From Cubamyces lactineus (Eukaryota; Basidiomycota; Agaricomycetes; Polyporales; Polyporaceae): DNA of 64,000 nucleotides. The stretch's first letter is position 1. Each line of letters opens with the position of its first letter. The notes beneath the pieces are model-generated. The model did not search any database. It was not told where the DNA came from and saw nothing but the letters and a program-made list of their open reading frames with translations. Shown piece after piece: positions 29,003 to 56,030 of this stretch. The translations under genes were made by a program, and so were the position numbers. The stretch spans positions 1,240,001 through 1,304,000 of the forward strand of contig JACDTU010000006.1 in assembly GCA_022376465.1 (NCBI GenBank). The letters are read 5' to 3'.

Positions 29003-29006
29003 CAGG
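29003..29006. repeat. Left 4-bp target-site duplication of the 27-kb element
   Basis: CAGG directly precedes the terminal CACGACGGG and is repeated directly after the other end (56027-56030). Deleting the element and one copy restores a DUF6534 exon-intron boundary. Confidence 0.8.
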
Positions 29007-30768
29007 CACGACGGGCATTACCGTGTTTGTGGCGACCGAAAAACCGACCAAAAAGCGAAGTCGGTTGTTACCTGCCTAATGCTTTCTCGGCCATTTCCGT
29101 TAGGACGAAAATGTAAAGACCCTGATGGTTTTTCGATGCTAATTCCCCTTCAGAAAAGGCAATCTTCCTGGCGTCGATTTCGTTGCGAGAATGCGCTGTA
29201 CTATTCTAACCCTTTTCTACTGCCGAAAAGCCGTAAGATCACGTTACCTCTTTTGATGCTTTCCCGATACGCAAAAAGGCATCCTGTCCGACGTGTTCTA
29301 CATCAACAATGAACATCGCCTTTTCGTTGGCCAAACGTTTCCCTTTGCGACGAGCGAAAAACTGCAGAAAACCCGTTGTTTGGCTGAAAACGTATCCGTC
29401 GCGTTTTCTGCCAGGGAACAGGCAGATTTCACAGCCGGTGCAAAGACAAACTGTAGCAAATCGTGATGACAGCATGATCCCATGGTTAGGGTTTCGGTGA
29501 TTTCGGTGATAATGTACAGTACAGTATATGACAAGGCACACAAGGCACACGCGCGTGAATTCTGTAGTGCGGTGATCTTGGAAGAATCTATGAGGGGAGC
29601 TAGAATGAGGACGGAACGGCATTACTCACCTGCGGTCCAGACCGTCCATTGTAAGGTATGTAGGAGCACATTGCGCGATAGAGCTCAGGAGGGTGGGAGG
29701 GAGAGAGATGGAGGAGGAGAGGAGGCTGAGATACACGGATCTGAAGGGTACAAGTGGGCGGGAGTATGAGTAATTCGGCGCAATGGCGCGTGGATGAACC
29801 ACCGGCAAAGTGAGACAGTGCGCACGCGATGTGGTGGGGCTGAGAGCCACGAGTTGCGCGGGCGGGGGAGGAGCGTCGCGCGCGGGGCGAAGAGGACCGG
29901 CACAACGCAGAAAAGCGCGGGTTGTACGAGACGAGGGCAGGGCACAATGCTGAAGGGCGCGAGATAGAGGGGTGTGAAGAGGCGCAGAGTCGCAACCGGA
30001 GCGATGGGCCAGATCGGAGCGATGGGAGCGCAGCGTCGAGTCGATAGCTGTGGGGCGAAGAAGACGAGTATGGTGTATGGAGGCACAGAGTGAGGGCGGG
30101 GCGAGACAGGGCGGAGTGGAGTGGAGCGGGATGAGACAGACGTGACACAGAGGGATGCGACGCTGAGGGGACAGGCCAGAGGCGGAGTGGAAAAGCGCTA
30201 CTGGGAGACGCAGGGTGAAGGCAGACGGGGCGGACGGGAGCGGTGCGGGGAGGCGCGGTGCGGCGCTAAGAGGAGCAGAATAAAGGAACGCGGGCGGGCG
30301 TTGCAAAGAGGACAGATGTAGGGCGGACATGTGCAGAGCAGAGGCGCGGAAACGAGCGCGGTGTGGGCGGGAGCGGCTCGGGTGGGCGCAGTGCGGGCGG
30401 GAGCAGTGCACGCAGGCGCGGTGCAAAGAAGACAAACGCGGCGGAGGCGAGAGCGGGGCAGAGGGGTGCGTGGAGGAGCGGAATAGAGCGGGCAGGAGCA
30501 GTTCGGGTCGGGGCGGTGCGGGCGGGAGCGGTTCGAGTAAACGCGGTGCAAAGAGTACAAACGTGGGGCGGTGGCGGCGGAAAGACGAGCGCGGTGCAAA
30601 GAGGACAAACGTGGGGCGGTGGCGGCGGAAAGACGAGCGCTGGGCGGACGAGAGCTGAGCCGGGAGGCGCAGTGCAAAGAGGGCAGGAGAGGAGCAGGGC
30701 GGCGAGGGGCGGAGCAATCAGGCGCCGCGCGAGAGAGGCGCGTCAAGCAGGGATCAGCGGATTACATG
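29007..30768 (+). repeat. Left 1.76-kb terminal inverted repeat
   Basis: It is the reverse complement of 54265-56026 without any indel: paired positions always sum to 85,033, and all ORFs in the two copies translate identically. The outer about 600 bp is of mixed composition. The inner about 1.1 kb is strongly purine-skewed (G/A-rich on plus) and built of degenerate short units such as GCGGTGCAAAGAG. A 48-bp unit is repeated in tandem at 30542-30589 and 30590-30637. Long ORFs here (up to 363 codons, Ser/Arg/Pro-rich) are compositional. Confidence 0.95.
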
Positions 30769-30788
30769 CGCGTGAAGCAGGAGAGGCC

Positions 30789-33700
30789 TCAAACGAATCC
30801 ACGTGGCGCAAAGAAGCGCGAGCGCGAGCGAAGTCGGAAATACAGAGTTGAACAATAAGTAAGAGGAGGGGTGAGAGGGCGTGGATAGTCGCAAATCGTT
30901 GCGAGGGCGTATGAGGCGCATCCATGGACGAAGTGTGCTGTGAAGAGATGTGTGGGGATGACGTATCGCTCGCACCATCTAGCTTGTCTAGACTGAATGA
31001 TTAATCCTGGAGGAATCGTTGAGTCAACAGTGTTAATGGCCTTGTTACGAGCTGGACTCACCCTATTTAGGGAGCGCACAATAATGCACTCCTCGCTGAT
31101 GCCGTTGACCTTGCAGGTTAGAGCTGCAAAGTGACAATGAATGTCGTCAAGACGGACAACGCGCGGTGTTGGCTCGGCCCGATTGTAGCACAGTCGGGTT
31201 TGCAAGTCCGAAAAGCGTCGGTATGGATCTTGGGACGCGTCGTCTGCAGTGAGTTCGACAAACTCTTCTACGATGAGGAAGGGTTCAACGACTGGCTTCC
31301 CCGCCTTGAGCCGGCTATGAAGGAATATGTCGACGATTTGACCAGCACGGGGATCGGCAGATGGGCGAAGAGGGTCAGTGAACATAACAAACGAGTCACG
31401 AAAGGCAGAACTGCGGGTCGCAAGAGTCATATGGTCACGATGCAAAGACGGAATGTAGTTGACCAAGTCATTGAGGATCGGCCGCACGTCTCGGCGGTAC
31501 CGGGCATGCATCGATGAAAAGTGTTCGCCCCCGAGCGCAAGGACTGACAGAAGCCCCTCGTATGCGTGTCGTCCTAGAGACTTTTCCTTCCGTTCATCAT
31601 AGGAGCAGCCACTTGGTGCTGAAGTTTCCCTGCCGGGCGGCCCAAAGCCTGACGCCCGCATGCCCTGCGCTATGTTGGTAAATGCGTCGTCGTACGCGGA
31701 CAGCATGGCCTTGTACTCGGGCGTATCCGGCCACTGGGTCGTATCCATTAGCCATCGCAGCTGTGCGCCGACGTAGAAGTATGACATGAATGTCAAAGGC
31801 ATGTCTCCTGAAGTAAGACAGCGTCAGCAGTATATTCTATGTGACAAGATGGCTTGCGTACTGGTTTTGTTATTGTTGTTCAATCGCTGTAGGAGGCCGT
31901 TGTAACGTTCGAAGGGGAAAGCCCACCACGCATGTACCGGGCCAAAGAGTAAGAGACATTCGTGGAGATGCAAGGATAGATGGTGGTTTGGTACGAAGTC
32001 ATGAGCGAACAGGGACTGGAGCGAGGAGAGATATTGCACAATGTGCGCATCAAACCGGGCAATACGATCGGGGTCAGTAGTGCGTCGTGTCGCTAGATCC
32101 ACAGCGGAGACCAAGTGAACGAAGTTGTCGAGCAAGAGCTTCTCCTTCTGAGAGGCACTGGAGGTGCCCCACAATCGGCATAACGTGATGACCAGACTCA
32201 CGGTGCAGACCGTGCGCCACTGGTCGGCCTTGAGTTTGCCGTGGCTGGGGCTACCGAAGTTACGAGGTGGACGTTCCATCCAGGACGGGAACACGGTGGC
32301 GGCGATATCGGCTCGAATGCGTTCAATCGTCGCCTGGTCCAACACGCGGAATTTAGAGATGTCGTGTGGCCCCTGGGCGACATGGAAGTCTACGACGTCT
32401 TCTTCCAGTACCGGTGGAAGTTTGATAGGGCCGGTATGATTTTGCATCTGTGGGATATTTGTCAGCGAGCTGGTGATAGTGACTCGCAACGTCAGAACTG
32501 ACCCATATGAGTAACCCTTGTATGTATGCGTCCTTCGTGAGAAGTGTAGACGGAAACGATGCGACACCATTGACTTCTGCGACAGCGACGAGGTACCCTT
32601 TGCGCACCTTGCGAAGAGCCGTCCCAGATTGCTTGGTAAGGCCCTTGAGGACTCGCTGGAGATTCGTTCGTTGCTCTTCGGGAGAGTGCGGAGTCACCTT
32701 ACCACCATCTCCACCCTTGTCCTTGATCTCAAGACCCCACACCGACCGGCAGTGATGGCGCAACTCTCCTAGAAACAGATTGTGCATCGCGTCCACCACA
32801 GTGAACCGCGTTGGGTCCCAATACGGAAGGCGAAGAAGCTCGCTCCATCGGAGGCCATGTTGCTTGAAGAGGGCCGAGCGCTCCGCTTCGGTGGCCGCGT
32901 CCTTCCACTTGCTCGCATAGCATATATGCTCTTCCCAGGTACGACGTCGCCATGAAGGCCGATCGAGATTGTTGATATCCTTCTTCGGGAGCTCGCAGAA
33001 GGAGCAAAAGTGCGCGGACATGTGGCCACCGAAGCCGCCCGTCTTGCGAAGGGCAGGAATGTCGCAGACAAGGGGTATGAGAGCAGCGCGAACGAGGATA
33101 CCGGCGCTATCTGCGAACACGTTGGAGAAATAGTAGCCGCGAGTCCACAATGCCATGAGTTCGTCGACGAGGGGGCGGAGTAGATGGTTGATCTGGTGCA
33201 ATTCTGGCTCCCTAGGGCCTGGAATCATGCCGGCGAGGTAGATGTTCTCAGGTCGATAGCGCACATCTTCAGGTAGATTCATGCAAACGAGATATATCGC
33301 ACCAATGGAGTGCGACTTCCCCGCCTTCTTGTTCCCGTACGGGTTGAACCAGTCGATGAACAGACTGAAGACCAGATGAAGCGAGCCGTCGGGCTCAATG
33401 GAGAAGAGGGTCTTGCCGTCAGGTCCCAAGAAGTTCCGCAGAGCCTGCCCATCGAAGATATCGCGCCATCTAGACGGCGACGTGCGCTTCCATGCACCCT
33501 TGAGAAGGGCCAGTATGCCCGGGCGACCAAGGAGGTCGCAAAGCCACGACTTGAAGCTACGGTAGGGGAAGACGACCAGTGGCTCGTACTTGGTACTTGC
33601 TTGTCCAGTACTTCGCGTGGGCACGAGAGTCACCTTCTCCACGAGAGTGGTTCCGCATTCCGGTTTGTCTACTTCGCGCCATGTACACTTGTGCGGATAC

Positions 33701-35090
33701 GGGTCTGTAGGTTTGGACGAATCGGGAGCATAGGTGTGGAAGCACGCAGGGCAGCAAGCATAGCGTATGATATCCGGCGAGAGATCCAGCGCGGCTAGCG
33801 CAGCCCGAAGATCGCGCGGAAGCGACTTAAGCACAGAAGCCTGAGCGGGGAGAAGTCGAGCAGGATGACCGAGGGAAGTATTGGCAAAAATGAAGGCGCC
33901 GTGGAGAAATGCCTGGAGTACTGCAAGGACGTACTGGATAGGCTGACGAGCAGTGGCGGCAAGGGAGTGTAAGACCATAGTCATGATGAGGGCAGCGAGG
34001 ATGAAGGGCTCCAAAGTTCGGGCGTAGGAACCTCTCTGCTTGTCTGCAGGAGGATGTCAGAGATTATATGTCAACGGACTTCACGAGAGTATGGGGATAC
34101 CTTGTTGGATAATCACCGGTCCTCCGTTGTTGGCACCAAGCCGGGCATGCACAACGACCTCGAACGAATGCTTGCACCATGCCCGTTCCTTCAGATCGTC
34201 CAATCTTCGCAGCTCCGAGGCGATCATCGAGAGCATGGCCTCGCGGTGTCCATCGACTTGCGGAACTCCGAGAGGCTGCAACGTCTCGGAGATGTACGTC
34301 TGCTGTTCCTTGAGCCAGCGATACAGCCCAATGAATCTGGCCTCAACGGGATCAGGAGCAGGTTCCTTCAGGCTTTCCGGGCGAACATCGAACGATAACT
34401 GGTAGTTTTTAGGAACTGTGCGAGTCAGGTGAGTGAAAGTACTCTCTAGATCGCCCAGAACTCTCCGACGAGTGTGCACTGCGAAATCGAGCTGCGACAT
34501 CGAAGTCATGTCGATCTGTGGGATCGAAGGGTTATCTACCGTCGGGGAGTTCGAAGGAGGAGCCTAGAATGCGCTGTATCAGCAAGTGTAGTGGGCTTGT
34601 CACGAGTAGACCACCACGTACCCGAGTTTCGTCTGCGAGCACACGTCCGACATGCTGGTCGTGCATTTGCGAATCGGTGCTCTGCAAGGGGGGCACGTCA
34701 CTATGTAATGTATCAAGGATAGTATGATAAGCATACCCCCGACGCACCGCTTCCCTCAACCTTGTCTGAACCACCAGGGGAGACGTTCTCTCCCCTCGAT
34801 CCCACCCTTCGTCCCTCTGACAAACTGTTTTGCGAGTCTCGGTGTCGTACAGGCAGGGTCAAAGACGGCTGTCTCGAAGGTCCCGCCGACGCAGTGGCAA
34901 GCAGAACGGAGCTCGCAACTTCAGCTTCGGCTTGTTCGACACGCCAATGATCGGTTTCGGCGTGCTTCCTGGCGATTTTGGGCGCAAGGAGTCGGCCCTC
35001 CTTCTCTTCGCCGCTCTCGTCGATGAATACCGCTCGGCGGCATTGAGAACAGGTGCAAAGGACTTTCGCGATTTTCGTTGGGGGGGCCAT
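30789..35090 (-). CDS. Plavaka (Tnp2/CACTA-like) transposase, probably 3'-truncated
   Basis: Six exons on the minus strand join in frame: 35090-34737, 34681-34622, 34563-34101, 34043-32503, 32447-31862, and 31807 down to a stop at 30789. The start carries a Cys motif (CTCSQCRRAV). The core has YACCPACFHTY (zinc ribbon), LFIDWFNPYGNKKAGKSHSI, RPENIYLAGMIPGPREPELH, DIPALRKTGGFGGHMSAHFC and TVVDAMHNLFLGELRHH. These are hallmarks of the Plavaka/Tnp2 DDE transposases of fungi. The later exons hold an alpha-helical region (HLHECLLLFGPVHAWWAFPF). A GTGAGT donor at 31061 suggests the true coding sequence leaves the frame there. The usual last about 150 residues are not found before the terminal repeat, only 21 bp away, so the gene looks truncated or degraded at its 3' end. 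Confidence 0.88.
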
Positions 35091-35227
35091 CGGATGCGGG
35101 AATGCTTGAATGGCCAGAGGGTACTTATAATGCCGGCTCCATCGATAGCAGTGTCAGGATGGGCTAATCACATGAAGTTGATAATCTGATGGGCGTAGTA
35201 ATGTCACATGAGAAAGCGTCGAGCGCA

Positions 35228-37193
35228 CTACGATGGGTCGGGTATATCAAGCCAAAAATCGAACAATTGCACGCTGACCTGGACCACCTCCTGATTACCA
35301 CCCGCCCAATCCCATATCGGGCGCTCCGTTGTGAGCGTTGGCGGCAGCGAAAGACCCTGGGACGCAAGGACCCACCCGTACCAAGCTAAAGCAATGGTCA
35401 AGACCGCGAGCAGGGTATACATAGCATGCCGTGGAGCGAGAAGCGCTATGTCAGGGGCATCTGGGGAGGCAGGGGAATTAGTAGTAGCAGCGGTAGTAAT
35501 TAACACCGCATGCCTGTATTGATCCGGAGGCCCCTTACACGCTGCGTTTGTAAGCGGAGGTAAGACTTCGCTCGTGAGTTCGTCTGGGCAGAAGCGGGAT
35601 TAGCATGGATCACCATGGAGCTGATACTCCGCATACCTCCGAGGCCATACGCTTGGCCTCCTGTATCCAAGCCAATGAAGTTCCCCGGACATCCCAAGCC
35701 AATGCAGAGTCGTATAGAGAGGCGATATAATCCAATTTCCTCTCTACGTCATGACCCTTATCTTCAGCGCTGTCTGATATGAGATTGGAGGATACGAGCT
35801 GCGTCGGAGGTGCGACACGATGCAGCAGGAGGGTGCCTTCGACTTTCTTCTCGCATCTTTCGTTCTCGTTTTCGGCGATGGCTGGCACAGACACGGGAGA
35901 CGTGATGTGTGTTGGAGGCGTGGCCGGGCGAAGCGGGAAGGACGGCATAGATAACGCCAAGATGCTGTCCACATCGTTAGAAGAGACCTTGCGGAAAGGC
36001 GACGCAGCATGTCAGTTAATCGGCTGAGAGTAGCCCGAGAAGAAGACTGTTTACCTGAGAGGGAGTCAGGCCATCCGCCTGCGCCATATTCCACCATCCG
36101 TCACTATCTCTGACCGGCGCAACGGATAATTGTTCATTTTCAGATACACTCTCGCGACTGCTCGCGTCTTGCAGTTCCATCTCCAGCGACGATTCAGGAG
36201 AGCTGGCGGACAGGGCTAAGAGTATAGAAAAACGTCAGTAGCTCGAAATAGCACCATGATTATCCGTGATACACACAGAGAAACCCGCCTTCGGTGCGCC
36301 GTTCTAAGTCTATCAGACTGGTCTGCACCGCTTGCAATGCATTCCAAAGGGCTTCTTCTTGACGCTGCATCTCAGCACATTGCTGTTCAAGCGTGTCCGC
36401 CTTCTGCTCTGTGGGGCTTAGCTGGTCTTGCAGCTGATCCAGCCTACTTTTAAAGGCAGACCATTGGGATTGCAGGATAGCGAGGTCGCACTGGGTCTTC
36501 TTGAAAAGGGACTGTAAATCGCCAAGTTGGTCGGTACAGGTCTCCTTGATTCGCTCCATAGCTTGAGCATTCTTGCGTAGTGCGGCTGACGAAGGTGCGT
36601 GAGCATTGGACCCGACCGGCGATGCATATGCTCACTCTCTGCGTGCTGATACGCTACCTTCGCCGGGAGTAGGAAACCCTCTAGTCGTCCATCCACGCGT
36701 TGGATCTCCTCCTCAAGCTGGACCATCCGGTTGTCGTATGTCGCCTATTAGTCTATCAGCACAGTGAGCTTGGCAGAGAAGCAAGAAGGTCGGCTCAGAC
36801 TTGGTTGCGCCTCAGTTGTATGACTGTCTTGAATAGCGAGGCGGTGACACTCTCGATAGCTTCCAGTTCTTCCAGCGCCTGACTGAAGTCCTTCTCCCAT
36901 GACGCTGACTCTGCAAGAGTGTTATCTAGACGTCTATAGAGGATCAACACAGTTAAAGCCTCCATTCCGGTGACCCGAGGCACTTACTGGAGTCGAAGAA
37001 TTTGGGCCATTGCCCGAGGACTTAACCTGCTCTGCAGTTGCAACGGGACCGTCGCCAGTGGCGTACCAGCTGCGTCCTCGCGTCGGTTGCTCATCTTGGA
37101 TAACTCCAGGGCATATTGTTCTGTACCGTCAGCCACGTTCCGAACCGTTGCCTGGGGAGCCTCCCCGATAGTACGATGTTGCACGGAGGCCAT
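35228..37193 (-). CDS. Coiled-coil protein with C-terminal membrane anchor (KASH-like layout)
   Basis: Exons 37193-36988, 36933-36801, 36744-36636, 36585-36277, 36215-36055 and 35987-35637, a 43-nt exon near 35590, and 35460-35228 give about 514 residues. Long helices fill the first half (SASWEKDFSQALEELEAIES; MVQLEEEIQRVDGRLEGFLL; KADTLEQQCAEMQRQEEALW). A Ser/Pro linker and KLDYIASLYDSALAW follow. The only membrane segment is near the end (YTLLAVLTIALAWYGWVLA), leaving about 45 residues behind it. This tail-anchored coiled-coil plan is that of KASH-domain outer nuclear membrane proteins, which bind SUN proteins; a SUN gene lies in the same element. No PPPX end is present, so KASH identity is only a hypothesis. 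The stop is 137 bp from the transposase start. The last two splice joins are the least certain. Confidence 0.68.
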
Positions 37194-37673
37194 GGGATCG
37201 TCCGAGATACGACAAGACGAGAGTCAGACGTTGGGAGCATGAGCCGCATTTGCTGACATGTACAAGGACGTAGTCTGTCATAGAAGCCCAGTTATCGTTG
37301 TCGGCTTTTGCATTACCGCTACTCTTTGGGTTCTTTGGTGGTTGTGTAACATAGGGCGGCTCACTGTGGCTCCGTCTTGTCACGGTGATCAGTCTCGAAC
37401 GTGATGGTGTCACGGTGTCACGGTCCGATGATACTGGGACATGGCCATGGCTGAGCGAGTGGGACTACATATCTGGGCGAAGCTGTGAAGGTTCTACTGG
37501 CTTTGCATAGAAAGACGTGGAGGGCTACATGTATATCGGTACGTGTACAACAGGAAGAAACTCGAAACAAGAAGAGGTCACTAGAGGATCAGCCGCCGTA
37601 ATGGACGACCCGTTCCGAGTCCATTGCGGTGATCTTCGACATTGGCCATGGGTCGCTATGGTCTAGCTTCATT

Positions 37674-39013
37674 TCAGAGACGATCTGCATGAGGAGTCAG
37701 CGAAGTAGTTTGGGGCATCCTCGACACTTACTTTGCATGTGGCGCTTACCGAACCAGTCGGTATCCAACCATGAGGGTAACCTCCACCGTTCCGTGAGAG
37801 TGAGCGTCCGGCCGTCTTCGCGTTGATACCCTACAGAAACGGACACCCAACGACAGCCGCCATTGCCATTTTGCCACAGCCACATTTGGGTCTCCTGCCC
37901 ATGGCGATGGAAGAATATATCGCCAATAGCGAGCATCGGGTGGTACGTGAGGTTCGGGGGAGATTGGATGGGTACCTTGGATATGGATGGCCAATAGCAC
38001 ATATACACTGCCTCCTGCCCTACACGGCCGCAGAAGCGCGTGCGGCGGACAGCGATGTACTACGGATCACTCATACGTTAGCTTCGCCTTCCGCACACGT
38101 TGTGGTGAGGATCCACTTACCCCTGTCGAGTCGGAAGACACAAGAGGGCTGCTCGTGTGAGACTCTTCATCCTCATCAATGTAAGAGAGAGATGAAGAGC
38201 GGGAACGGGCACCGGTACCCGACTCCGAACTAGAACCGGGAGGAGAGCGGAGCTGAGGCTGAGATTGAGGTTGGGACTGAGGCTGAGAACGAGAGCTTGA
38301 CTCTGTTTCAGACCGGCTAGAGCTAGGTTTTGGTGACCGGTGAGTCGTAGGGAAGGGATGTTCGGGTAACGAAAGGTGTGTCGACGTGGACGGCGGTGAT
38401 GCAGCAGATGTGTGACGGCTTGATAGACCATCGGTACCGGTGCTTCCCTCGTGTGATGTCGAGACCGCATCGCTAGAGCCCACTTCCTGAGTGGTCTCAG
38501 CTGACTGGAAGAGCATGGATCCAGTGCTGAACGACGTCCCACGCCGTATGATGGCGGTCATACGGCGAATAACACCTTGGCTGTCGACTAGCACGCCGGG
38601 AGACTTGGAGCCTTCAAGTGGCGGGCGGATCCTTTGGTCTCCTGAGTGGCTATGAGTTTGGATCGCCTCCGAGTCTCTAATATGCCTGCATTGACGCATG
38701 GGTGAGAGGCTGGCCACTATCACGTCTATCTCAACTGTACTCACACTGAGTCAGCTCTAAACGTACTGAGAGAAAACTTCTTGAAAACAGTCGGCTCGAG
38801 GTGCCGATCGTCGCGAATGGGGGGCCTGAAGTCCAAGTAGGTAGGTCGAGAGGTCTTCACGACAGCGGTAGCAGAGTAGGATATATTCAGCGAACCCATT
38901 CGGGTCACGTATGGCGGCAGTGATTGCTGAGAGCGTCGCCGAAAGACATACAGAACAAGAATAATAGCAAGACCCAGGACGACAGAACTAGCAGTGGCTG
39001 AGAGCGGGTGCAT
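37674..39013 (-). CDS. Membrane-anchored protein with shared C-terminal domain X (copy 1)
   Basis: Exons 39013-38745, 38685-38121 and 37975-37732 and a short last piece give about 360 residues. A single membrane segment lies at the N-terminus (SSVVLGLAIILVLYVFRRR). A long Ser/Gln/Pro-rich linker (SRSQPQSQPQSQPQ region) follows. The C-terminal domain of about 75 residues reads IGDIFFHRHGQETQMWLWQN, GYQREDGRTLTLTERWRLPS and W. The same domain ends the neighbouring gene at 39353-40527, so the two are tandem paralogues. The last join is uncertain: a GTAAGT donor at 37731 leads to a stop at 37674, while an alternative frame stays open to 37589. I do not recognise the domain. Confidence 0.68.
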
Positions 39014-39352
39014 CGTCGCGAGGATGCCGCCCAGTTTGACATACAGCACGCTGTCGACGCGAGTTCCCCAGAGTGTCATGAGGGGCAACAGTGCGAGGTC
39101 AGGACAGCGATCGTAGAATCTTATGCATTTTTGAGTCCTTTGTGATCTTACAGCGCCCTTGCGACAAAGGAGGAGGTCGCCGTCAAGAAAAGCGAGCATA
39201 AGCGCTGCGGAACACCGGCGTACAGGAGGGATAGGACAGGCACCGAGATATTATTTTGAAGGATACGATACGTTTGAGAGGTACAGGAGGAAGCACGACA
39301 ACGACAAAAGCGGGAGACAGGGAGTATTACACATTACAGACTGAAGACAGGC

Positions 39353-40527
39353 CTAATGGGCTTTGACCCACGACGGCCACCGGTTCGCCGTCGTCACGAT
39401 GAGACGCCTCCCATCCTCCCGGATATAACCGTAGTGCACGGGCATCCAGAACGGCTCGCCTTGAGGCCCAATGCTCCAAAGCCAAAACTGGTACTGGGTG
39501 GATGTACGATGATAGTAGAGGTCGCCAATCTCGACTACGAGGCCTGGTTCGCCGGTGAGGTCGGGAGGACGATCGATCAACGCTTCGCCGATGTTCTCAG
39601 TCTCAAACCACGTCGCGAGAACTGGGCCCAATGGCCGCGCTTTGTCTCCCCCATGACCCTGCTTCTTGCTGACCTTGGACACTTCTCTAGTACGCTTCCG
39701 ATACGGAGAAGATGCCTGTGATTATATGAGCCGACATGCTAAGCGTCCCTCATGGATGTGCAATGCTCACCTGAGAACCACCTGCGCCACGAACGGGGGT
39801 CGCAACGGTGCTAGAGCGAGAACCTCCAGCGTTGATCCTATCGCGAAGAGGATGAGGCACGAACCGTCCCGCTTGGGAGACAGATCCGGCTACGCGAGGC
39901 TCGACGGCAGAAAGAGGCTCCACCTTCACGGGTGCAGAGTGGGCGCGAGGCTCTGCCTTCACTGGAAGAGGTAGATCGCGAGACTCTGCCTTCACTGGGA
40001 CGGGCAGGTCGCGAGACTCTGCCTTCACTGGGAGGGGCAGGTCGCGAGACTCTACTTTCACGGGAGGAAGGGGGAGACGGCTTGGGGCGGCAGCGTGAGC
40101 TTGATCTTCAGCCTTGACGGCGACCGAAGTTCCAGCTTCGGCGTCGCCCGCATCGTTCGAGGGCTGAGGCCTAGGACGACGTGAGGGTGCCCTCGGTATC
40201 GGGTACTCCTGCGCTCTAGCGACCCCCGTCGCAGAGTGATCAGGTTGGCCTCTGGGAGGCGCAAGACCTTGGTTGACGGCCCTACAGTAGCACCCGTAAG
40301 CATGACGATTGCAACAGATGAAACGAAACGTACTCCAGTTGCTCTGACATCTGCCTATCACGCGGAAACTGAGGAGGAGCCTGCCTCTGCAAAGTTGCTG
40401 CGCGTTGCATCCTCCGGGGAGCAGCACCTTGAGCGCCGAACTTCATGGAAACAGCAGTGAAGATAACAGCCAAGATGATCGTGTAGACAGTTATGAGGCA
40501 TATGAAGACGAGAGGATCGTCGAACAT
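39353..40527 (-). CDS. Membrane-anchored protein with shared C-terminal domain X (copy 2)
   Basis: Three exons (40527-40334, 40281-39771, 39715-39353) give 355 residues. A short N-terminus precedes one membrane segment (VFICLITVYTIILAVIFTAV). The linker holds at least four copies of a VKAESRDLPLP-type repeat (plus-strand 39915-40075). The C-terminal domain reads VVEIGDLYYHRTSTQYQFWL, then W, then GYIREDGRRLIVTTANRWPS and WVKAH before the stop. It aligns with the domain at 37732-37940: GD, two aromatics, HR, a QxWLW core, GYxREDGRxL and RxPSW. Function unknown. The gene is divergent from the small gene at 41201. Confidence 0.75.
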
Positions 40528-41959: not shown

Positions 41960-42161
41960 TGAATTTCTATCTCGTCACCTTTGTACCTGCTGCTTCCTGG
42001 CCATGCAAATATACGTGTTTCGTGTTGTTCCTATCACTTGCGGGCGTGCATGAGAACTGGTTCTTGTCGTTGTGGATCAGCAAGTGAGTCTGGATGGTAG
42101 TTGCATTTCTAGCGAACGATCTTCCTATATCTCTGAGCGCACAGCGTTGTCGTCACTCCTA

Positions 42162-43518: not shown

Positions 43519-43559
43519 CTGCAGTTTGTTTTATCTGATGTAGTCCAAACGACTGATTC

Positions 43560-43810
43560 ATGCGGAGACATCCACAAATCCATTGTATCGGACGGATACA
43601 TTAACCAGGCACGATATCAACGCGGTGGGACAGACGTCGGTGCGAAAGAGCGCGGAGACGAGTAGAAAAGTCCGATAATTAGCTACAAAGACTGCAAAGA
43701 GCATGTCGAACAGATGGAGCGAACAGGGCAGCGCAAAACGGACGAAAGGAGGCTGAAGCGCAAAAAAGCGGGGCAGAGCGGAGCAGAGTAAATGATGCAA
43801 GTAGACGTGA
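43560..43810. promoter_or_regulatory. Upstream region with purine-rich motif
   Basis: The region lies between the membrane/coiled-coil gene and the next gene. About 43725-43792 is a G/A-rich run containing GCGGAGCAGAGTAAA. A near copy (GGAACAAAGCAGAGTAAA on the minus strand) occurs at about 45750-45775, and similar GGAGC units fill the terminal repeats. A shared promoter module is possible. Confidence 0.3.
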
Positions 43811-43918
43811 CTCGTGAGTGGCGGGGAGGCTATGTCTAGCCATGGATGCATACGTTCACGATGGGCCTCTGTCTCATAGGCGCGTTAAGTATAAGCCGTC
43901 TCTGAGATGTTCAATGGC

Positions 43919-44443
43919 TTACTGGAGGTTGTTGGCATGGCTATGGTGTGCCCTGAGAGGCAAGAGGATTCGACAGGTCTCCGGATCAAGCAGTTGCATG
44001 AGGATTGTTTCGAGCTCCGTGATATGAGTACTGTTAAAGCGAGTCGCAGCCGCTTGTAGGCTAACAAGAGTGGAAAGTGTCTTGTTCTGTGCCTCCTTGT
44101 TCGCCAAGACCACCTTGCTCTGGCGAAGCTCTTCTTTGAGGCGACGGATACCTGATAACAGCTGTAAACGAATGTACGACAGTACACAGGGCGTCACTCA
44201 CACGCGATTGCTTCCTCCATGGTGGCGGGATGGGCAATCGAGCCTTGCGACATCAATACTGGTGGATGATCAGACCTCCGATGGGCGCGATGATATACTG
44301 TCGTACCTACCTCCGTGAGACGATGACGACGACATGGGGGTAGGAACGAAGGCGGATGATGAGTGTTGATGAACACGAGGCCCCAATGAGGCCAATGTGA
44401 CGTGACTGCGTTGGAATGGACACGGGGACGTGGGACAAGCCAT
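43919..44443 (-). CDS. Small coiled-coil cargo protein
   Basis: Three exons (44443-44311, 44258-44202, 44151-43919) give 140 residues. After a Ser/Pro-rich N-terminus (PTPMSSSSSHG) there is a helix (ATMEEAIACIRRLKEELRQS). It continues as VVLANKEAQNKTLSTLVSLQ and LETILMQLLDPETC. The heptad-like pattern suggests a coiled-coil partner for the longer proteins of the element. A nearer ATG at 44335 could also start the protein. No membrane segment is seen. Confidence 0.62.
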
Positions 44444-44556
44444 AGGCGAGATGAGATCGCACACCGTTATTTTCGCGCTATCCGCGCCAGTATCTGAGTG
44501 AAAGTGAGGGACATGCGAGTGAGCTCGCCTGGGTACGGATCGACGAGCAATTATAT

Positions 44557-45516
44557 TCACTGCAGACACAATACACGGGATACGCATGTCATTGGTAGGA
44601 GGTCTCTACACCTAGATGAACTTGATGGGACGAGTGACGGGGAAGAAGCCGCTGATGGGCGCGCCTGGGATCCGTCAGTATAAATCGGCCTCCCAGAACA
44701 AGCAGCTGCAGTACATACCTTGGGCGGAAACGGTACTACCGCCGCCGATTGCGGTATCGTCGTCGCCGTCGCTAGTATCTTGAGGACGCTCAACGCCCTT
44801 GATATCGCTGTCGTTGTGGCCGACAGTTTGAACCCCGCGCTCCTTGATGACACCCAATCAGCGGCACTGTCAAGTAGAACCTCAGACCGGATGAGAGGAC
44901 TAACCGCTAGAACATCCGGAGTGGCGCTTCGAAGTCGCACCAACGGGAATTGTTCAAGTTCAAGCACCTTCAACCGCTCTTGGAGCGCCAGCCTGCGCTC
45001 GGCGAGCTGGGACTTGCCCTCCATGACGGAACGGACAAATTCCGTGAAGTCGAGCTGCTTGGAGAAGCGTACATGAACTTCCCAATGCTCCGGCCATACA
45101 CCGGAGACTTTTGGAGCGATGTTGCACACCCTGTCTCTCTGCGAATGAATGAGCGGACGCGGTAGATACACGGAGCATCATAGGAAACGTACCTCATTGC
45201 ACGAGAACCCAATGTTATCGTCGACCAGCAGCGGAAAGGCTGATCCGTCCGCAACGCCAGAGCTCCCTATCTCCTTGAGAACGATGCCATCTCACCAGGA
45301 TATCAGCGGATGGTGCCTAGAGCATCAGCATGCTATCGCACTCACATTGTTCAGGCAGAAGTTCTCCTAGGACGATGCGGATGGGGCGCCACTCTGTATT
45401 ATCTGGGGTATAAAAAGCGTCGTTGGTAGCATAGACAACAGCTGGAGATTCGCTGTCCAGAAGTATGAGGAATTCGGGCGTTCAGTAGGAGCGGGGATGT
45501 GAGCGTACCTAGCCAT
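44557..45516 (-). CDS. Cargo protein, family Y (copy 2)
   Basis: Five exons (45516-45509, 45452-45346, 45290-45193, 45138-44719, 44664-44557) give 246 residues. The first exon is only 8 nt. The protein begins MASESPAVVYATNDAF, then DNTEWRPIRIVLGELLPEQY, and has FPLLVDDNIGFSCNE in the middle. The segment WEVHVRFSKQLDFTEFVRSV resembles segments in the genes at 41201 and 46088. A helix (QLAERRLALQERLKVLELEQ) follows. The last exon may be read-through, since its composition differs. I do not know the function. The gene is divergent from the one at 46088, with about 570 bp between starts. Confidence 0.68.
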
Positions 45517-47205: not shown

Positions 47206-48527
47206 TCACGTACGTCGTGCTGCACACCATAGAATTACTGAGACGTCCGTAGTTTCTTCGCTGATGCCGGTAGCAAGGAGGAATCGGTCGCATTTTCGAT
47301 CGTAGTAAGCCTATGGCTCGTTATTTAGCATGGCATGATACAGTGGCGTAACGGTAACGACTCACAGATATAGCGAGAACACATGCATTTTCTGTAGACA
47401 GCGGGTCAGTGAATCGTAATTGATTGCACAAAGAATGCACCGACCCTTGACTAGGATTCGTTGATGCACACGGTGCTTGATCGCGTCCCATATCCTGACA
47501 ATTCCAGTGGTACTGCCTCCGACGATCGCGTTACCGTTGTGCGCAAATAGCACTGGTACTGCACGTAGCCCTGTACCAGTGGGGTTACGTAGAGAGCCTA
47601 GCGAGGCGCCAGTTTCTAAGGAATACACGTCGAAGCCCGATACGAGGTTAGAGACGGCAAGTTGGTTGCTTTCACCGCCAATGCTGGCACTGACACTGCA
47701 GGCGCGGATGGGTTAGAGATGTGCTAGCTATCTCAACACGATTCGGACTTACATACACCCTTGCATAGGTATAACTCGCAAACGCGTCCAGTGCTCGCTA
47801 TCGTAGATCCTGTGAAGGTAATGGGTCAGACGAATCATTTCCGAGTAGCCAACCAAGACTTCATACATAACGCCATGATGCATGTAGGTGACCAGGAGGA
47901 CCCTGCCATGAGTCTTCGTTGTTGTCCAGTGCACACTTGTAACTACAACCTGTCGGTGTTCGGTATGCGAGGTCAAGGGAGGTGCACCTAGATCGAAGAT
48001 GGGCGTCCAATGATCTTCGCACGAAGTCAGGCGTCGTGTTATCTTGACCTGTTGTGAGACAACATACCGGAGACATTCTTCCATACAAAGAGTTCGTGAT
48101 GTGCACCGGAGGCCAGCCGTAGTTCGGAAGATGAGATAGCTAAGCATTCAACAGGTGCGTGGTGACCTGGCAGGGCCTGGGCTCTTAAGCGTCCCTGCAT
48201 AAGTTCGTCAAGCTGAATGGTGTCACCATGCTCTCGAGAACTTACCGACGCGAAACTTAAAACGGACACGGTTCCGTCCTGCATGCCGATCAGGAGAACG
48301 GCTTCATGGGGCGATGGTTCCCAAGCAAGAGACAACGTCGTGCTCCGACCGTCCAAAATATGGAGAGGATCTTCTTCTGTAATGGCCCATATACATACTT
48401 TGCGGTCAATTCCGGCGGTCGCGATATAGTTCCCCTCAGGACTAAATGCGACAGCGACCACGCCGCCAACATGCCCTTTCTTGATTTCCTTCAATTTTTC
48501 GTACTTCAAGGGTTCGCGCGAAGACAT
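47206..48527 (-). CDS. WD40-repeat cargo protein
   Basis: Five exons (48527-48068, 47987-47759, 47695-47445, 47391-47366, 47310-47206) give 356 residues. WD40 signatures are visible: KGHVGGVVAVAFSPEGNYIA then TAGIDRKVCIWAI; LPGHHAPVECLAISSSELRL then ASGAHHELFVWKN; and VPVLFAHNGNAIVGGSTTGI then VRIWDA. About six blades seem possible, with several degenerate ones in the middle. WD40 propellers are scaffolds, so it may hold together other element-encoded proteins. It is divergent from the SUN gene at 48964 (436 bp), which suggests shared control. Confidence 0.82.
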
Positions 48528-48963
48528 CGCGCGAGTGTTCGGTTCGAGCCTATGATGAGCGTATGTGTCAGAGAATGTATACAGCTAGCACGGGTATTGC
48601 GTACTCACGACTGAACATCGAATGCCGACTACTAATGTAGACGTCCGACGAGCCGGAGTACCTTCAGACAGGTGCTTACTCTGTGACCACCAGTGACGCG
48701 CAACGCGCCCTGCGGTCACATTTCGTGACGAAATTGATGCGGGCGCTCCAACCTATTCCTTCGCTACCACCACACGCCACTAGCACAGTTACACTCGAGC
48801 TACCGGTATTCGTTGCAACCGCTGGGCAAGGGGAACAGCATGAATCCAACGTTTGACCCAAATAGGTTCATCTACGAGAGCCCGTCCGTTGGCCCACAAG
48901 GTACGTACGATTATGATATTCATCTGTCTCACCTAACCATTCCATGAAGTCCGTGGCAGGAAA

Positions 48964-49839
48964 ATGAACGAGCATGCCGGACCAAGACCCAGTGCTACGC
49001 CTTCTCCCGAAGTTGATGAAGACGAAGACAACGCTACGAATAGCCCTTCGCCTGATTCGGGTTACAACACCCTGGCACGCTCAATTGGGCCTCCCTTCGT
49101 TTCGAGCCTCTGTGGCGTCTTGGTTGCCGTGATCATATGCCTCCTCGTCCAACGTTCCCTGGAATTGCCGCCGCCAGAACCCCTAGCCCCTGAAGTTGAA
49201 CCTCACATTAGGGCATACGTCGAAAGTGCGATCACCAGGGCCCTCCGCGATCCGGTTGGGCTACGCGACTTCGCTTTACTCGCTGACGGCGCGAGGTTAA
49301 TACCCGAATTAACCTTTCCCTCTCGTGAGCGTGTTGGTGGCAGGCTGCCTAGGGCTACGAGCCCAGAGATAGCTCTGGTCGACGACCTTCATGTCGGCAA
49401 CTGCTGGTCATTTGCTGGAGAGAGATCACAACTTGGGTTACGTCTGTCCGAGATCATCTACCCCACGTACGTCACCGTCGACCACATTCCGGCTGAGATC
49501 GCCGCGGACGCCGGTAATGCCCCTCGAAGCATGGTTCTATGGGGTGCCGTGGACGGCATGGCGAACGAAAACCGACTTCAACAGCTCCGCGACACTGTCC
49601 CCGCGCTTGCTCCTGGCAGCCGTGTCACCCCACCAGTCTCGCATGGCTACAAGTACGTTCCTCTCGTCTCCTTTGAATACGACATATGGGCCCCCTCGCA
49701 CGTACAGACATTTCGCGTGGATCAGTGGATTAAGGACTCCCGCATGGACTTCGGTGTCATGATACTCGAGATCGCAGGGAACTGGGGAGGGAATGGGACA
49801 TGTCTATATCGCGTACGCATTCATGGCCAGCCGATCTGA
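48964..49839 (+). CDS. SUN-domain membrane protein
   Basis: One uninterrupted exon encodes 291 residues. An acidic Ser/Pro-rich N-terminus of about 45 residues precedes one membrane helix (SLCGVLVAVIICLLVQ). A short helical neck (EPHIRAYVESAITRALRDPV) follows, then a SUN domain from about residue 105. Landmarks are LRDFALLADGARLIPELT, GNCWSFAGERSQLGLRLSEI, VDHIPAEIAADAGNAPRSMV and LWGAVDG, as in SUN proteins of the inner nuclear membrane. SUN domains sit in the perinuclear space and bind KASH tails. The protein is much shorter than cellular fungal SUN proteins, with a very short neck, and is intronless unlike its neighbours. Confidence 0.92.
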   Translation: MNEHAGPRPSATPSPEVDEDEDNATNSPSPDSGYNTLARSIGPPFVSSLCGVLVAVIICLLVQRSLELPPPEPLAPEVEPHIRAYVESAITRALRDPVGLRDFALLADGARLIPELTFPSRERVGGRLPRATSPEIALVDDLHVGNCWSFAGERSQLGLRLSEIIYPTYVTVDHIPAEIAADAGNAPRSMVLWGAVDGMANENRLQQLRDTVPALAPGSRVTPPVSHGYKYVPLVSFEYDIWAPSHVQTFRVDQWIKDSRMDFGVMILEIAGNWGGNGTCLYRVRIHGQPI

Positions 49840-50115
49840 GCGCCGTGGGGAATCACGCATGTATGTCATAGCCGCACAATCATCCATCCTGAATGGTTCA
49901 AATCGCTCGTTTGTGAAAGCACTTTGCCTTACTCCGATAGGCTATACTTCATCCTAGGTGTATACCCAGCGACAAAGGTTTACCTTTAAAGCTTACCAGC
50001 AAGAGGCGCAAAGAAGACCATCGAGTACATGCAGTAGGTGTTAGGTTTTTGCATAGTTTTGCCACTGAGAACGACTATAAGGGCTATCCGCACGTCCAGT
50101 ACTGATGCAACCATC

Positions 50116-53100
50116 ATGAACGATTCCCGCCACTCTACCACCACTCCACCCGCACAGTCTCCCCCCTGGGGGAGCTCACTCACGTCCCCTATCACCTATG
50201 AACCCGAAGCCCAAGTTCCCGGGCCAACGCAGAGTGTTCTCGGTCAGAAACGAGGCATTACAGGGCCATATGCACACACTCTCGAGAACGGTAAAGCGAT
50301 GCGCTTGTGCGAAGCTGTTAGTGCCGTCACTCTGTTTAGTCGTAGTTTCAGAATGCTAACCAAGTACAGAGCACCCCGCGCCCCCTAGAAATATCGCCGC
50401 TCTACGATGTACGTGACAAGCTATCTCACATCACACATCTTCTCATAACATCTGCAGCTGTCCTTCAGACGCAAGCGCTATCTCGGCAGAAACCAGGAGC
50501 AAGCGCAAATATATGCCCAGGCGCAGGCACAGGTGCGCGCTCACGCGGAGGCTCAAGCGCACGCTGAAGCGCAGGCGCACGCTGAAGCGCAGGCGCAGGC
50601 GCAGGCGCAGGCGCAGGCTCAGGCGCAGGCGCAGGCTCAGGCGTACGCGTACGCGCAGGCTCAGGCGCACGCGCAGGCTCAGGCACAGGCCCAGGCTTAC
50701 TCCGAGGTACAGCAGGTCAGTGAGGTCCTCATTTGTTGACATCAAACACATCCCACACTGACGACAGTATCGAGCCTCAACACAGGAACATATCCCGCAA
50801 GCTGGGTTTGCATCCGAAACCCCTGCGGAACAAGCGGTTTCATTCGGGCATGTTCGTCAGACGCGGCCGCTGCCGCAAGGTCCCAGACCGAACCACCCCG
50901 CCGCATCAGCGAACATACAAGACCGTCCATCGAATATGTTTGCACATGGCCACACGTCGAACATATTTGCACATGTGACCCCTGGTAAGAGTGTGATTAC
51001 CACGTCGAATGCGCTTGCTCACAATGCTTCCAGAGGCAACGTCCATCGCGGAGCCCATGGCGGGCGCTGCGTCACCAGGTGGCTCGACTATGCGCGTCCA
51101 TGTCGATTATGTAGCCTCGACAAACCAGCCACAGATCCAACAGACTCACTCCCCGACAAGTGCCCAGGCGGTTAAGCATACCATAGGGCAAGCCCCAATT
51201 CCGACGATCGCTCCGGACAACGGAAGGCCCACCCCTTGGAACCTCCCTCAAGTACAGGACAGCGACTCAGGGCGCTCGCATACAATGTTGGAGCACTCCT
51301 CCTATGGCCGGACAGTGCCCAACATTCCTTCTACTGTACTGAACGCAGCGCGTGCGGTTTTTCAGCATACAATAAATCCCCATGCAGTTCTGGTACGTGA
51401 GGCCTAGCCCTTGTATCCTAGTGCAGTTCGCTGAGTGGACTGGTCCAGGATGATGCAGATGCCGCCTCGTTGTGGATGCAACTCAATGAAGCAGAACAAC
51501 GACGGGCACTTGAAGACTACTCCAGGATTGAAGCGCAGCGGTTCATTCGAGCCCAGGAATCATCCTTTGCGTCGATGCCTACAGCACCCATCAGCGTATC
51601 ACGGCAAACGTCCACCTCTCAGCTTGGCAATGCACCGTTCCAGCAGGTCACGTCTCACGGACTTGTCCCTACTCCTGCGCCTCCGCCTGCGCCTGCGCCT
51701 CCTGCACATCGGCAGGCGAATCCCTCGAGCGCTTACTACACCACTGCCGAGGCTGGCTTTGACGACGACTCTCAAGGGCACTACCAACAACCACCGCACC
51801 TTCCTCCCACCACAGCTGTGGGCTCGAATGGATACCCTAACCCCGCTTCATCTCAGCCTGACATGCCGCACGGCCCCAATGTCTCCCGCTTAGTGGAAGT
51901 GCAAGGCCCACCAAACACCGCCTCTACACCGCCTCTAAGCATGCGAAGTATTGACGTACCGTTCATGGATCTGCAGCCGGATTTAGGAAACGCCGGCGAA
52001 CATACCTGGGCTATCGACAATGGGATGGATGTGACGGACCCTTCGGGAATAGAGCGCTTCGAGCCTCAGCAGCCGTACGAGAATCAGGTAAGTAGAGTAC
52101 CTTTTTAAGTTTCTTTCCTTGCTAACGACACTCTCTGTAGGATATCGACGTCGACCCAACGATCCCGGACCTGCCGGTGCCCATGCCTACCAACGGCAAG
52201 GGGAAGGTGAGCACAAGCTACTCACGAGAGGCAAGCGCTACGTACTCATTGAATACAGGAGCGTGCTAGAGGGACAAATGAAGTGTTGGGGGTATCTGCC
52301 GCGCCTGTACTGCACGTTCCTCTTAGTACGCGCCCAATCGTAGAAGACCGGGTGAGTCATCCAGGTCGTCAGTTGCGTGCGGTGCTCATAGAATACGCCT
52401 CAGCCATCCAGCATCCAACCTCAACCTCAGACTGGTTCCGGTGCCGTCGATGCTGAGCTCTGGCTTGTGCTACTCCAGAAGTTAGACGGCCATAGACAAG
52501 CGATGGAAACGCAGGCCGGTATCACGTACGTGTGATCATCCTATCAAACACCACAGACCGTTAGTGCTTACAAGCTTCGTAGTCAGGCTCTCATGGATCA
52601 AGTGCAAGACCTGCGAACACAATTCACAGAGTTTCGCACTGCTCATGCGAGTAGCAGTATCAGCAACCAGCCTGCACCACCGCGCTCGTCTGTACTGCCT
52701 ATGTCCGTGCAAGAGCAAAAGGTCAAGCAACCTTCGTTACGCGCCCGGAAGAGAATGCGCAAAATCAAGGACAAGCTCACTCGTCAAGCAGGGACGGCTG
52801 TCATGCCGCGAATACATGGCGAGGACGAAGCCGACGGCGAGGACGAATCAATGGATGAGGACGAGGAACTCGAAGATGACGCGCACTTATGCCGACTGAA
52901 GGTATTTACGCGGATGTCTTCGAACGCTGCAAATTGTTGACGCAGTGAATATAGGCCCGCGTAAGACATCTCCTTACAACCATGTTGAACATCTCCGATT
53001 GGTCCAATATTGCGTCGTTGTATCCCACGTTAACGCAAGAAGAGGAATCTCAGTACCTCAGTGGAACCGGGCAATTCGTCTGCACAGAGGAGAACTTTTA

Positions 53101-53967
53101 TGTGGACTTCCAGCGGTCGTGGTCGAAGTTCGCCTTGAACAAGGCAGCTCGAGACATCTTCATCGACAAGTACTTCAGACGGGTAGAGGGCGGCGCCTAC
53201 TCTAGCGATCCAACGCCCCAGCATCTCCTCACGCGCGAGCGTATCGGTAAGATTCTCGACAAGCACATGTACTACTGTCGAGAGCGATGGCGGATCTCTG
53301 TCAAGAACGCCGAGGAGGCGAAGGCTGAAGGAGGCGATTCGAATGGGGACAAAAGCGAGGAGGGCGCTGGAGAGGAGGACGCCGAGCGGAGAGAGGCTGC
53401 CAAGCAGAAGGCTGCCAGACGGGAGGAGGCTGCAAGGCGGAAGGCGATCGCGGACGAGCGCGCGAAGCGGGCAGCTCAGAGGTCACGTCAGCGAACAGTG
53501 AGTTATGCATTGTCGTGTAGAATGGCGTGCTAACTTGCATGTAGATACACGAATCGCGTACCCTCACCCTTCGTCGCCGAGGGTACCGCCGCCATCTTCG
53601 GTTGTTCACTCTGTTGGAACCGGTCAACATGAGTGCCGATGAGACCGATGGGCCAGAGAAGAAGCATCCATCAGTGTTCAGTATCGTCCTCGCTCCGTGG
53701 CAGAGTCAGTCCTTCAGGAACTGGCTCTGGTCCATTGATGCCATGGGCAGGCACGATTGGGAGCATCCACGCGAACGCCGCAGGACGGCGGGTAACGAAC
53801 CTCGAGTTCGAGTATTGCCGGAGCAACCCACTGCGCCAGGGAACTACTGCGTTGCGCCCATAGGTCTTCCTCGCAACTGCTATGACAGCGACTGGCTTGC
53901 ATCCCTCCCAACATATGCGAAGCGCGAGCTTGAGATTGACGACTCTGACTATGACTTCTCATTCTGA
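50116..53967 (+). CDS. 1,088-aa cargo protein with Gln-Ala tract, unknown function
   Basis: Thirteen exons can be joined in frame: 50116-50316, 50370-50408, 50458-50715, 50768-50984, 51034-51392, 51449-52087, 52141-52206, 52259-52284, 52327-52351, 52392-52525, 52565-52901, 52955-53497 and 53545-53967. The N-terminal two thirds are low complexity, including an AQAQ tract (50530-50700) and Pro/Gln-rich regions. A helix ([16 protein letters not shown]), basic [15 protein letters not shown] and an acidic run follow. The C-terminal about 320 residues look folded: [40 protein letters not shown], a charged helix, then [20 protein letters not shown] and [20 protein letters not shown]. This end resembles an expanded agaricomycete family often seen near transposons, from memory only. 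Exons 52259-52284 and 52327-52351 are tentative. Confidence 0.72.
50530..50700 (+). repeat. Hexanucleotide-like GCGCAG tract coding for Gln-Ala
   Basis: Imperfect tandem copies of GCGCAGGCTCAG encode alternating Ala-Gln (with His, Glu and Tyr variants) in the third exon of the 1,088-aa gene. The minus strand also stays open through it (Arg/Leu or Pro/Ala frames), which is compositional. Confidence 0.9.
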
Positions 53968-54264
53968 GTAAGTATGCCTAATCTGTATGCATATTGTCCT
54001 GTGTAATGCGATCACTTACCACGTTATTACCGCCCTAGACATTCGATAGGGGCCATCGGAACATGAAGGCAATCCCTCGCCACCGACCTCTCATTCTCTG
54101 CGCCTCGCCTGGAGGTCTCTTCCCCCGCCCTTCTACTCCGCGCGGCATCCATATCGTACCCGCCCACCCCGCGCGCTCCCCGCTTTCCGGATTGCTGTTA
54201 AACGTACTTCGACCCTCCCTCACCTATGTCTCTTCTTCGCTCCTTCGCGCCCACTCAGCATAGC

Positions 54265-56026
54265 CATGTAATCCGCTGATCCCTGCTTGACGCGCCTCTC
54301 TCGCGCGGCGCCTGATTGCTCCGCCCCTCGCCGCCCTGCTCCTCTCCTGCCCTCTTTGCACTGCGCCTCCCGGCTCAGCTCTCGTCCGCCCAGCGCTCGT
54401 CTTTCCGCCGCCACCGCCCCACGTTTGTCCTCTTTGCACCGCGCTCGTCTTTCCGCCGCCACCGCCCCACGTTTGTACTCTTTGCACCGCGTTTACTCGA
54501 ACCGCTCCCGCCCGCACCGCCCCGACCCGAACTGCTCCTGCCCGCTCTATTCCGCTCCTCCACGCACCCCTCTGCCCCGCTCTCGCCTCCGCCGCGTTTG
54601 TCTTCTTTGCACCGCGCCTGCGTGCACTGCTCCCGCCCGCACTGCGCCCACCCGAGCCGCTCCCGCCCACACCGCGCTCGTTTCCGCGCCTCTGCTCTGC
54701 ACATGTCCGCCCTACATCTGTCCTCTTTGCAACGCCCGCCCGCGTTCCTTTATTCTGCTCCTCTTAGCGCCGCACCGCGCCTCCCCGCACCGCTCCCGTC
54801 CGCCCCGTCTGCCTTCACCCTGCGTCTCCCAGTAGCGCTTTTCCACTCCGCCTCTGGCCTGTCCCCTCAGCGTCGCATCCCTCTGTGTCACGTCTGTCTC
54901 ATCCCGCTCCACTCCACTCCGCCCTGTCTCGCCCCGCCCTCACTCTGTGCCTCCATACACCATACTCGTCTTCTTCGCCCCACAGCTATCGACTCGACGC
55001 TGCGCTCCCATCGCTCCGATCTGGCCCATCGCTCCGGTTGCGACTCTGCGCCTCTTCACACCCCTCTATCTCGCGCCCTTCAGCATTGTGCCCTGCCCTC
55101 GTCTCGTACAACCCGCGCTTTTCTGCGTTGTGCCGGTCCTCTTCGCCCCGCGCGCGACGCTCCTCCCCCGCCCGCGCAACTCGTGGCTCTCAGCCCCACC
55201 ACATCGCGTGCGCACTGTCTCACTTTGCCGGTGGTTCATCCACGCGCCATTGCGCCGAATTACTCATACTCCCGCCCACTTGTACCCTTCAGATCCGTGT
55301 ATCTCAGCCTCCTCTCCTCCTCCATCTCTCTCCCTCCCACCCTCCTGAGCTCTATCGCGCAATGTGCTCCTACATACCTTACAATGGACGGTCTGGACCG
55401 CAGGTGAGTAATGCCGTTCCGTCCTCATTCTAGCTCCCCTCATAGATTCTTCCAAGATCACCGCACTACAGAATTCACGCGCGTGTGCCTTGTGTGCCTT
55501 GTCATATACTGTACTGTACATTATCACCGAAATCACCGAAACCCTAACCATGGGATCATGCTGTCATCACGATTTGCTACAGTTTGTCTTTGCACCGGCT
55601 GTGAAATCTGCCTGTTCCCTGGCAGAAAACGCGACGGATACGTTTTCAGCCAAACAACGGGTTTTCTGCAGTTTTTCGCTCGTCGCAAAGGGAAACGTTT
55701 GGCCAACGAAAAGGCGATGTTCATTGTTGATGTAGAACACGTCGGACAGGATGCCTTTTTGCGTATCGGGAAAGCATCAAAAGAGGTAACGTGATCTTAC
55801 GGCTTTTCGGCAGTAGAAAAGGGTTAGAATAGTACAGCGCATTCTCGCAACGAAATCGACGCCAGGAAGATTGCCTTTTCTGAAGGGGAATTAGCATCGA
55901 AAAACCATCAGGGTCTTTACATTTTCGTCCTAACGGAAATGGCCGAGAAAGCATTAGGCAGGTAACAACCGACTTCGCTTTTTGGTCGGTTTTTCGGTCG
56001 CCACAAACACGGTAATGCCCGTCGTG
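54265..56026 (-). repeat. Right 1.76-kb terminal inverted repeat
   Basis: Exact inverted counterpart of 29007-30768. Here the inner part is C/T-rich on plus. Sequence identity ends sharply inside at 54265 (ATGTAATCC...) and outside at 56026 (...CCGTCGTG), where the CAGG duplication begins. The absence of visible divergence implies recent insertion or ongoing homogenisation. Confidence 0.95.
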
Positions 56027-56030
56027 CAGG
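56027..56030. repeat. Right 4-bp target-site duplication of the 27-kb element
   Basis: CAGG directly follows the terminal CCGTCGTG and matches 29003-29006. Confidence 0.8.

Follow-up and report, generated by a model that had tools for sequence, protein, structure and literature searches.

Transposons of the EnSpm/CACTA type usually carry one or two open reading frames (ORFs), and the enlarged members described from Chondrus crispus reach 16 to 20 kb with 4 to 5 ORFs (PMC6431247). A second source gives EnSpm elements CAC..GTG termini and a 3-bp target duplication, Plavaka elements the termini CATCA..TGATG or TGT..ACA, and the wider CMCT group target duplications of 2 to 5 bp, and it describes fungal CMCT transposons carrying a TET/JBP gene (PMC12730594). 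For nuclear envelope bridges, a third source reports that KASH tails typically end in PPPX, that no KASH-domain protein could be identified in Cryptococcus, and that Sad1 of this fungus has roles in clustering the kinetochores and in moving the nucleus (PMC6034078). Here we describe a 27,020-bp element of the basidiomycete Cubamyces lactineus that has an EnSpm/CACTA-type transposase, extra genes shared with divergent relatives in the same genome, and among these a gene for a predicted SUN-domain membrane protein. The element lies in a window of 64,000 nucleotides (assembly GCA_022376465.1, contig JACDTU010000006.1, positions 1,240,001 to 1,304,000 of the forward strand), and coordinates given without a locus handle refer to this window.

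The element is bounded by two terminal inverted repeats of 1,762 bp, the left at 29007..30768 (plus strand) and the right at 54265..56026 (minus strand). Comparison of the left repeat with the reverse complement of the right gave 0 mismatches and no indel, and the 4-bp sequence CAGG stands immediately outside both ends (29003..29006 and 56027..56030), so that a first-pass annotation of this DNA was right about both the repeats and the flanking CAGG copies. By chance alone, a 4-bp flank match would be expected in 1 of 256 cases. The termini, which lie within the inverted repeats, read CACGACGG..CCGTCGTG and are of the CAC..GTG type. The full-length repeat is present at only 2 places in the genome, both in this element, and its first 90 bases give ten short matches elsewhere. 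The same annotation had proposed a search for other copies with these ends, and it was productive: the exact 15-bp end with which the left repeat begins, CACGACGGGCATTAC, is found 13 times across the genome (twice in the window element and 11 times over seven sites elsewhere), compared to 0 occurrences for its reversed control. At the 5 sites read, short elements of 215 to 218 bp carry the same 15-bp ends, each with a 3-bp duplication (TCA, TAC, TAT, ACT, and AGT), and these are probably non-autonomous relatives. Exactly identical arms can also be produced by an assembler, and the long inverted repeat might then be an assembly artefact or, alternatively, come from an unrelated duplication of the locus in inverted orientation; we consider this very improbable, given the direct repeat at both ends, the ends in common with the short elements, and a relative that has the same architecture with a different end sequence (C40, described below). 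That the segment is a large DNA transposon is, in our judgment, close to certain.

At 30226-30712, on the inner side of the terminal repeat, degenerate direct repeats form a G-rich/C-rich stretch. Short repeat motifs were considered as binding sites and rejected, as the top 6- to 8-mer counts did not exceed the highest of 200 Markov shuffles, with the exception of CCGCCC in the inner part of the repeat (16 copies compared to a shuffle maximum of 15).

The transposase gene adjoins the left repeat (31062..35136, minus strand), in agreement with the first-pass annotation, and has several introns, its exact ends being unsure. Ten minus-strand ORFs were scanned with Pfam for the transposase family, and those at 32356-34056 and 31827-32693 matched Transposase_21 (PF02992, E of 5.6e-14, 52.3 bits for a cut-off of 28.6) and DUF4218 (PF13960, E of 2.4e-8, 34.3 bits for a cut-off of 27), both over the curated cut-offs. 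The annotation had named the transposase as Plavaka-type, but the Plavaka family PF18759 had no match at an E of ≤0.1 in the ten ORFs. Elsewhere in the genome this family is matched 48 times, compared to 0 times at the window locus; one of the 48 is a sub-cut-off match in the transposase relative at C43 (1.2e-5), and the relative at C11 also gives a sub-cut-off match (0.01). With PF18759 absent, tnp2 domains present, and ends that differ from both forms of Plavaka termini, we rejected the Plavaka classification. Because of its tnp2-type transposase domains and CAC..GTG ends, the element is by sequence of the EnSpm/CACTA type, with a 4-bp duplication that falls inside the 2 to 5 bp of the CMCT group but differs from the 3 bp of EnSpm. 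Such a transposase would act on the CAC..GTG ends and move the element by cut-and-paste. The main transposase ORF has no solved structural relative at an E of ≤1. An N-terminal exon of the transposase gene, in which a CxxC pair occurs, is common to the C40 relative (the g10N match, E of 2.7e-5), and this match belongs to the transposase N terminus and not to the neighboring helical protein discussed below.

There are 16 transposase matches in the genome, the window included, with identities of 51% for C11, 50% for C40:1542408, 41% for C43, and 40% for C24, plus weaker ones. The sister element around C40:1542408 is 23,779 bp long, has 1,119-bp arms at 99.55% identity and the ends CACCAG..CTGGTG, and shows ATG on both sides (a 3-bp duplication); its 18-bp end occurs in the genome only at its own two ends. 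It sits between two direct gene copies (C40:1536572-1539504 and C40:1563794-1566730) that are 76% identical over ∼3 kb and encode an 820- to 850-residue protein, kinase-like by eye. A second sister, around C11:92847, is ∼22 kb long with 591-bp arms at 99.15% identity, and a partial copy of 9,518 bp (C42:579431-588948), which matches the right part of the C11 element at 99.87% identity, contains g13-type, SUN, and g18 genes with no transposase match beside them. Arms and copies that differ so little suggest that the elements were recently active; gene conversion could also keep arms alike.

About ten genes, including the transposase, were modeled in the window element, using automatic models with manual mending; the automatic model had fused the transposase with the helical protein gene, and the two were separated by hand. 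A tblastn comparison among the window, C40, and C11 elements links the transposase, the WD40 protein, the domain of g12 and g13, the SUN protein, and the C-terminal part of g18. In the window, the WD40 protein is at 47221..48584 (minus strand, the span of matched pieces and not a full gene model). The gene g13 (39353..40527, minus strand, NCBI protein P0037) encodes a predicted N-terminal membrane anchor and the shared C-terminal domain, while its paralogue g12 (37589..39014, minus strand) has the same C-terminal domain and, by eye, an N-terminal hydrophobic segment. The large protein g18 is encoded at 50116..53967 (plus strand), and its exon is matched at 4 places in the genome, which are the four element loci that carry SUN. 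For the g13 domain, there are 6 matches in the genome, two in the window, one each in C11, C42, and C40, and one ∼6 kb from the C43 transposase; outside this genome, a search of 47 candidates recovered only the window's own protein. Its predicted structure is a weak model (pLDDT score of 66.7) with a best Protein Data Bank match at an E of 0.6. These sequence matches outline a lineage of large multigene elements in the genome, with a transposase, a WD40 protein, the g13 domain, a SUN membrane protein, and g18, and we hold it very likely that this accessory gene set is shared across the lineage.

The SUN protein (48840..49839, plus strand, exons 48840-48900 and 48950-49839) has 316 residues, with a SUN (Sad1_UNC) domain whose SUN fold is predicted and, N-terminal to it, a predicted transmembrane segment at residues 69-87 (hydropathy of 2.69). 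Thirty-three SUN relatives come from places other than this locus. PF07738 has 11 matched stretches in the genome, which fall in 6 genes: two host genes, on C3 and C1, and four element genes. The host gene on C3 we take to be Slp1-like and that on C1 Sad1-like, and their presence would fit another explanation, namely, that the element is indeed a large EnSpm/CACTA transposon but that SUN and its neighbors are passengers captured from the host and do nothing for the element. Repeated capture would also give what a quick tree shows, in which the three SUN proteins of the elements are not grouped in a single clade and the host rows are on long branches, and the membrane protein g14 (42015..44253, minus strand), which is without a match in the sister elements and whose single relative in the rest of the genome is at C1:754688 (35%), agrees with it. 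On the other hand, SUN, g18, the g13 domain, and WD40 recur together though the transposases are only ∼50% identical, and their frames stay open, where a 300-codon stop-free frame in random sequence has a probability of ∼9e-6. We regard an inert passenger set as unlikely. As several of these genes are common to sister elements, they are better described as accessory genes of the element than as picked-up cargo. The gene g14 may be captured cargo, given its single C1 relative and its absence from the sisters.

Several observations weigh against an EnSpm/CACTA-type element with a shared gene set. Neither an excision nor an empty allele was observed, nor was a second full copy of this element, the DNA search with its entire interior not being scored. 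The window duplication has 4 bp, compared to 3 bp in the C40 element and in all five short relatives read. No clear outer ends or duplications were seen for the C11 and C42 copies, and C42 is without the transposase half. Lastly, the relatives at C43 and C24 are without a SUN match, and SUN is therefore not needed by all related transposases; other accessory genes do occur at these loci, with a WD40-like match at C43 (9e-6) and, at C24, a protein beside the transposase that resembles g15 of the window (44612..45516, minus strand, E of 2e-6). The interpretation as a giant multigene transposon nevertheless gains strength from the relatives, which have terminal repeats of their own, and from the short elements, whose ends match those of the window element, and we consider the EnSpm/CACTA-type element and the shared gene set, taken jointly, to be highly probable. 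The giant cargo-carrying transposon of the first-pass annotation, with about ten cargo genes, thus stands as regards its many genes and its long homogeneous ends, while its superfamily was wrong, the ten or so genes include the transposase, and several of them recur in divergent elements.

Directly upstream of the transposase, on the same strand, is a gene for a helical, coiled-coil-like protein (35228..37193, minus strand), and a gene of this kind has the same position in all three full elements (window, C40, and C11). The coiled-coil character was judged by eye, and the end of the window gene is from our own splice model; the central exons are backed by NCBI protein P0035. All three proteins have a predicted C-terminal anchor, with peak hydropathies in the gene models of 1.76 (window), 2.27 (C40), and 2.53 (C11), followed by a tail with a P-[IV]-W motif of 43 (window, with PIWD), 17 (C40), and 55 (C11) residues, the window length following from our splice model. 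The C40 and C11 proteins are related to each other (6.5e-29). A hydrophobic stretch is also present at the C43 locus, in an unclear gene context, and none is found at C24. Outside the genome, the search for the tail-anchored protein returned, apart from the NCBI model of the window gene itself, a single protein, from Trametes cinnabarina. In these models, the helical protein is KASH-like in layout, not in sequence.

A membrane-anchored SUN protein and a tail-anchored neighbor encoded by one element could form a bridge at the nuclear envelope. By analogy with known SUN proteins, the SUN protein would reside in the inner nuclear membrane and expose its SUN domain to the perinuclear space, and a nuclear envelope location is rather probable. 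Conjecturally, the SUN domain might then bind the tail-anchored protein of the same element by its short tail, the bridge so formed might tether the element's DNA-protein complex to the envelope, and the tethering might help its maintenance, reinsertion, or transmission.

This bridge faces a number of difficulties. The window anchor is moderate, its peak of 1.76 being below the threshold of 1.8, and was not flagged. The window helical protein has no BLAST match to its C40 and C11 counterparts and is linked to these through its position and layout alone, and its NCBI model stops before the proposed tail. The tails end in DIPDPS, PIWDALAA, and PVWMAYGA, none of which is PPPX, and for this reason the proteins were not filed as KASH. 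The failure of the three element SUN proteins to group in one clade counts against the bridge as well, as does the replacement, in the C40 and C11 SUN proteins, of the SUN-domain His and Tyr that we presume to be KASH-contacting residues. Loss of these residues in two of the three proteins would instead suit a SUN protein used by the element in the endoplasmic reticulum or nuclear membrane without a tail-anchored partner, for example, to modify host Sad1 and nuclear movement. Such a use is in line with a predicted SUN fold and anchor next to a window partner that has no BLAST match to its counterparts, and with the roles of Cryptococcus Sad1 cited above, but it leaves aside the gene with a C-terminal anchor and P-[IV]-W tail that adjoins the transposase in three of three elements; we see it as possible, if somewhat improbable. 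As for the SUN-tail bridge that tethers the element to the envelope, we regard it as a tentative and doubtful proposal, and we are equally hesitant about its wider form, in which an element-encoded bridge of the linker of nucleoskeleton and cytoskeleton (LINC) type, with a Sad1-like SUN protein and a dedicated tail-anchored partner, holds the element at the envelope or biases the fate of the carrier nucleus.

A LINC-type bridge, if true, would mean that a transposon selfishly exploits the architecture of the nucleus, in a fungus with two separate nuclei in each cell. The shared nuclear-membrane-type protein would join transposon biology with nuclear positioning, a link that matters for fungi living with two separate nuclei per cell, and the tail-anchored proteins are candidate SUN partners in Basidiomycota.

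The insertion target, by its sequence, is a decayed DUF6534-like relic. DUF6534-like pieces flank the element in consistent order on the minus strand, in the left part at 27785..28989 (pieces at ∼28930, 27948-27868, and 27850-27785) and in the right part at 56094..56326 (one weak piece), and they are short, weak, and frame-broken. The first-pass annotation had a DUF6534 gene reading through perfectly once the element is removed; the joined junction, however, is crossed by open stretches of only 45 and 59 codons, the best matches of the flank pieces to the DUF6534 loci of this genome are at ∼1e-4, and nine flank translations scanned with Pfam gave no match at an E of ≤0.01. The G+C content adjoining the element is 0.50 to 0.51, compared to 0.56 to 0.58 further out.

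Among known systems, Starships are, like this element, large fungal cargo-carrying mobile units (Tremella Starships, in PMC13066641), whereas the window element has a transposase of the DDE-type family and long terminal inverted repeats; no tyrosine-recombinase captain was found in the interior Pfam scans, in which the plus strand at ∼34.4 to 44.4 kb was not fully covered and no dedicated model was used. Plavaka elements belong to the same broad group, and two relatives give the sub-cut-off matches mentioned above, but the window transposase is without PF18759 and the ends are unlike those of Plavaka. The TET/JBP-carrying CMCT transposons are likewise DNA transposons of fungi that belong to the EnSpm/Plavaka group and have a host-type accessory gene. 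Here, that gene encodes a SUN protein, and no TET/JBP domain was present in the frames scanned; SUN is not named in the main text of that source (0 occurrences in PMC12730594), and the literature searched, a library short of most subscription journals, yielded no account of a transposon that carries a SUN gene. The LINC complex is similar in its SUN fold, membrane segment, and, in the window, a neighboring gene with a C-terminal anchor and short tail; the window set differs in that it is transposon-encoded, has a P-[IV]-W tail instead of a PPPX end, and has a conjectural pairing of partners. With the enlarged EnSpm/CACTA elements of Chondrus crispus, the window element has in common a tnp2-type transposase, CAC..GTG ends, a short duplication, and extra genes, and it differs from EnSpm/CACTA elements by its 27 kb, ∼ten genes, and 1.76-kb arms, and also by its SUN-domain gene and a gene set common to divergent copies.
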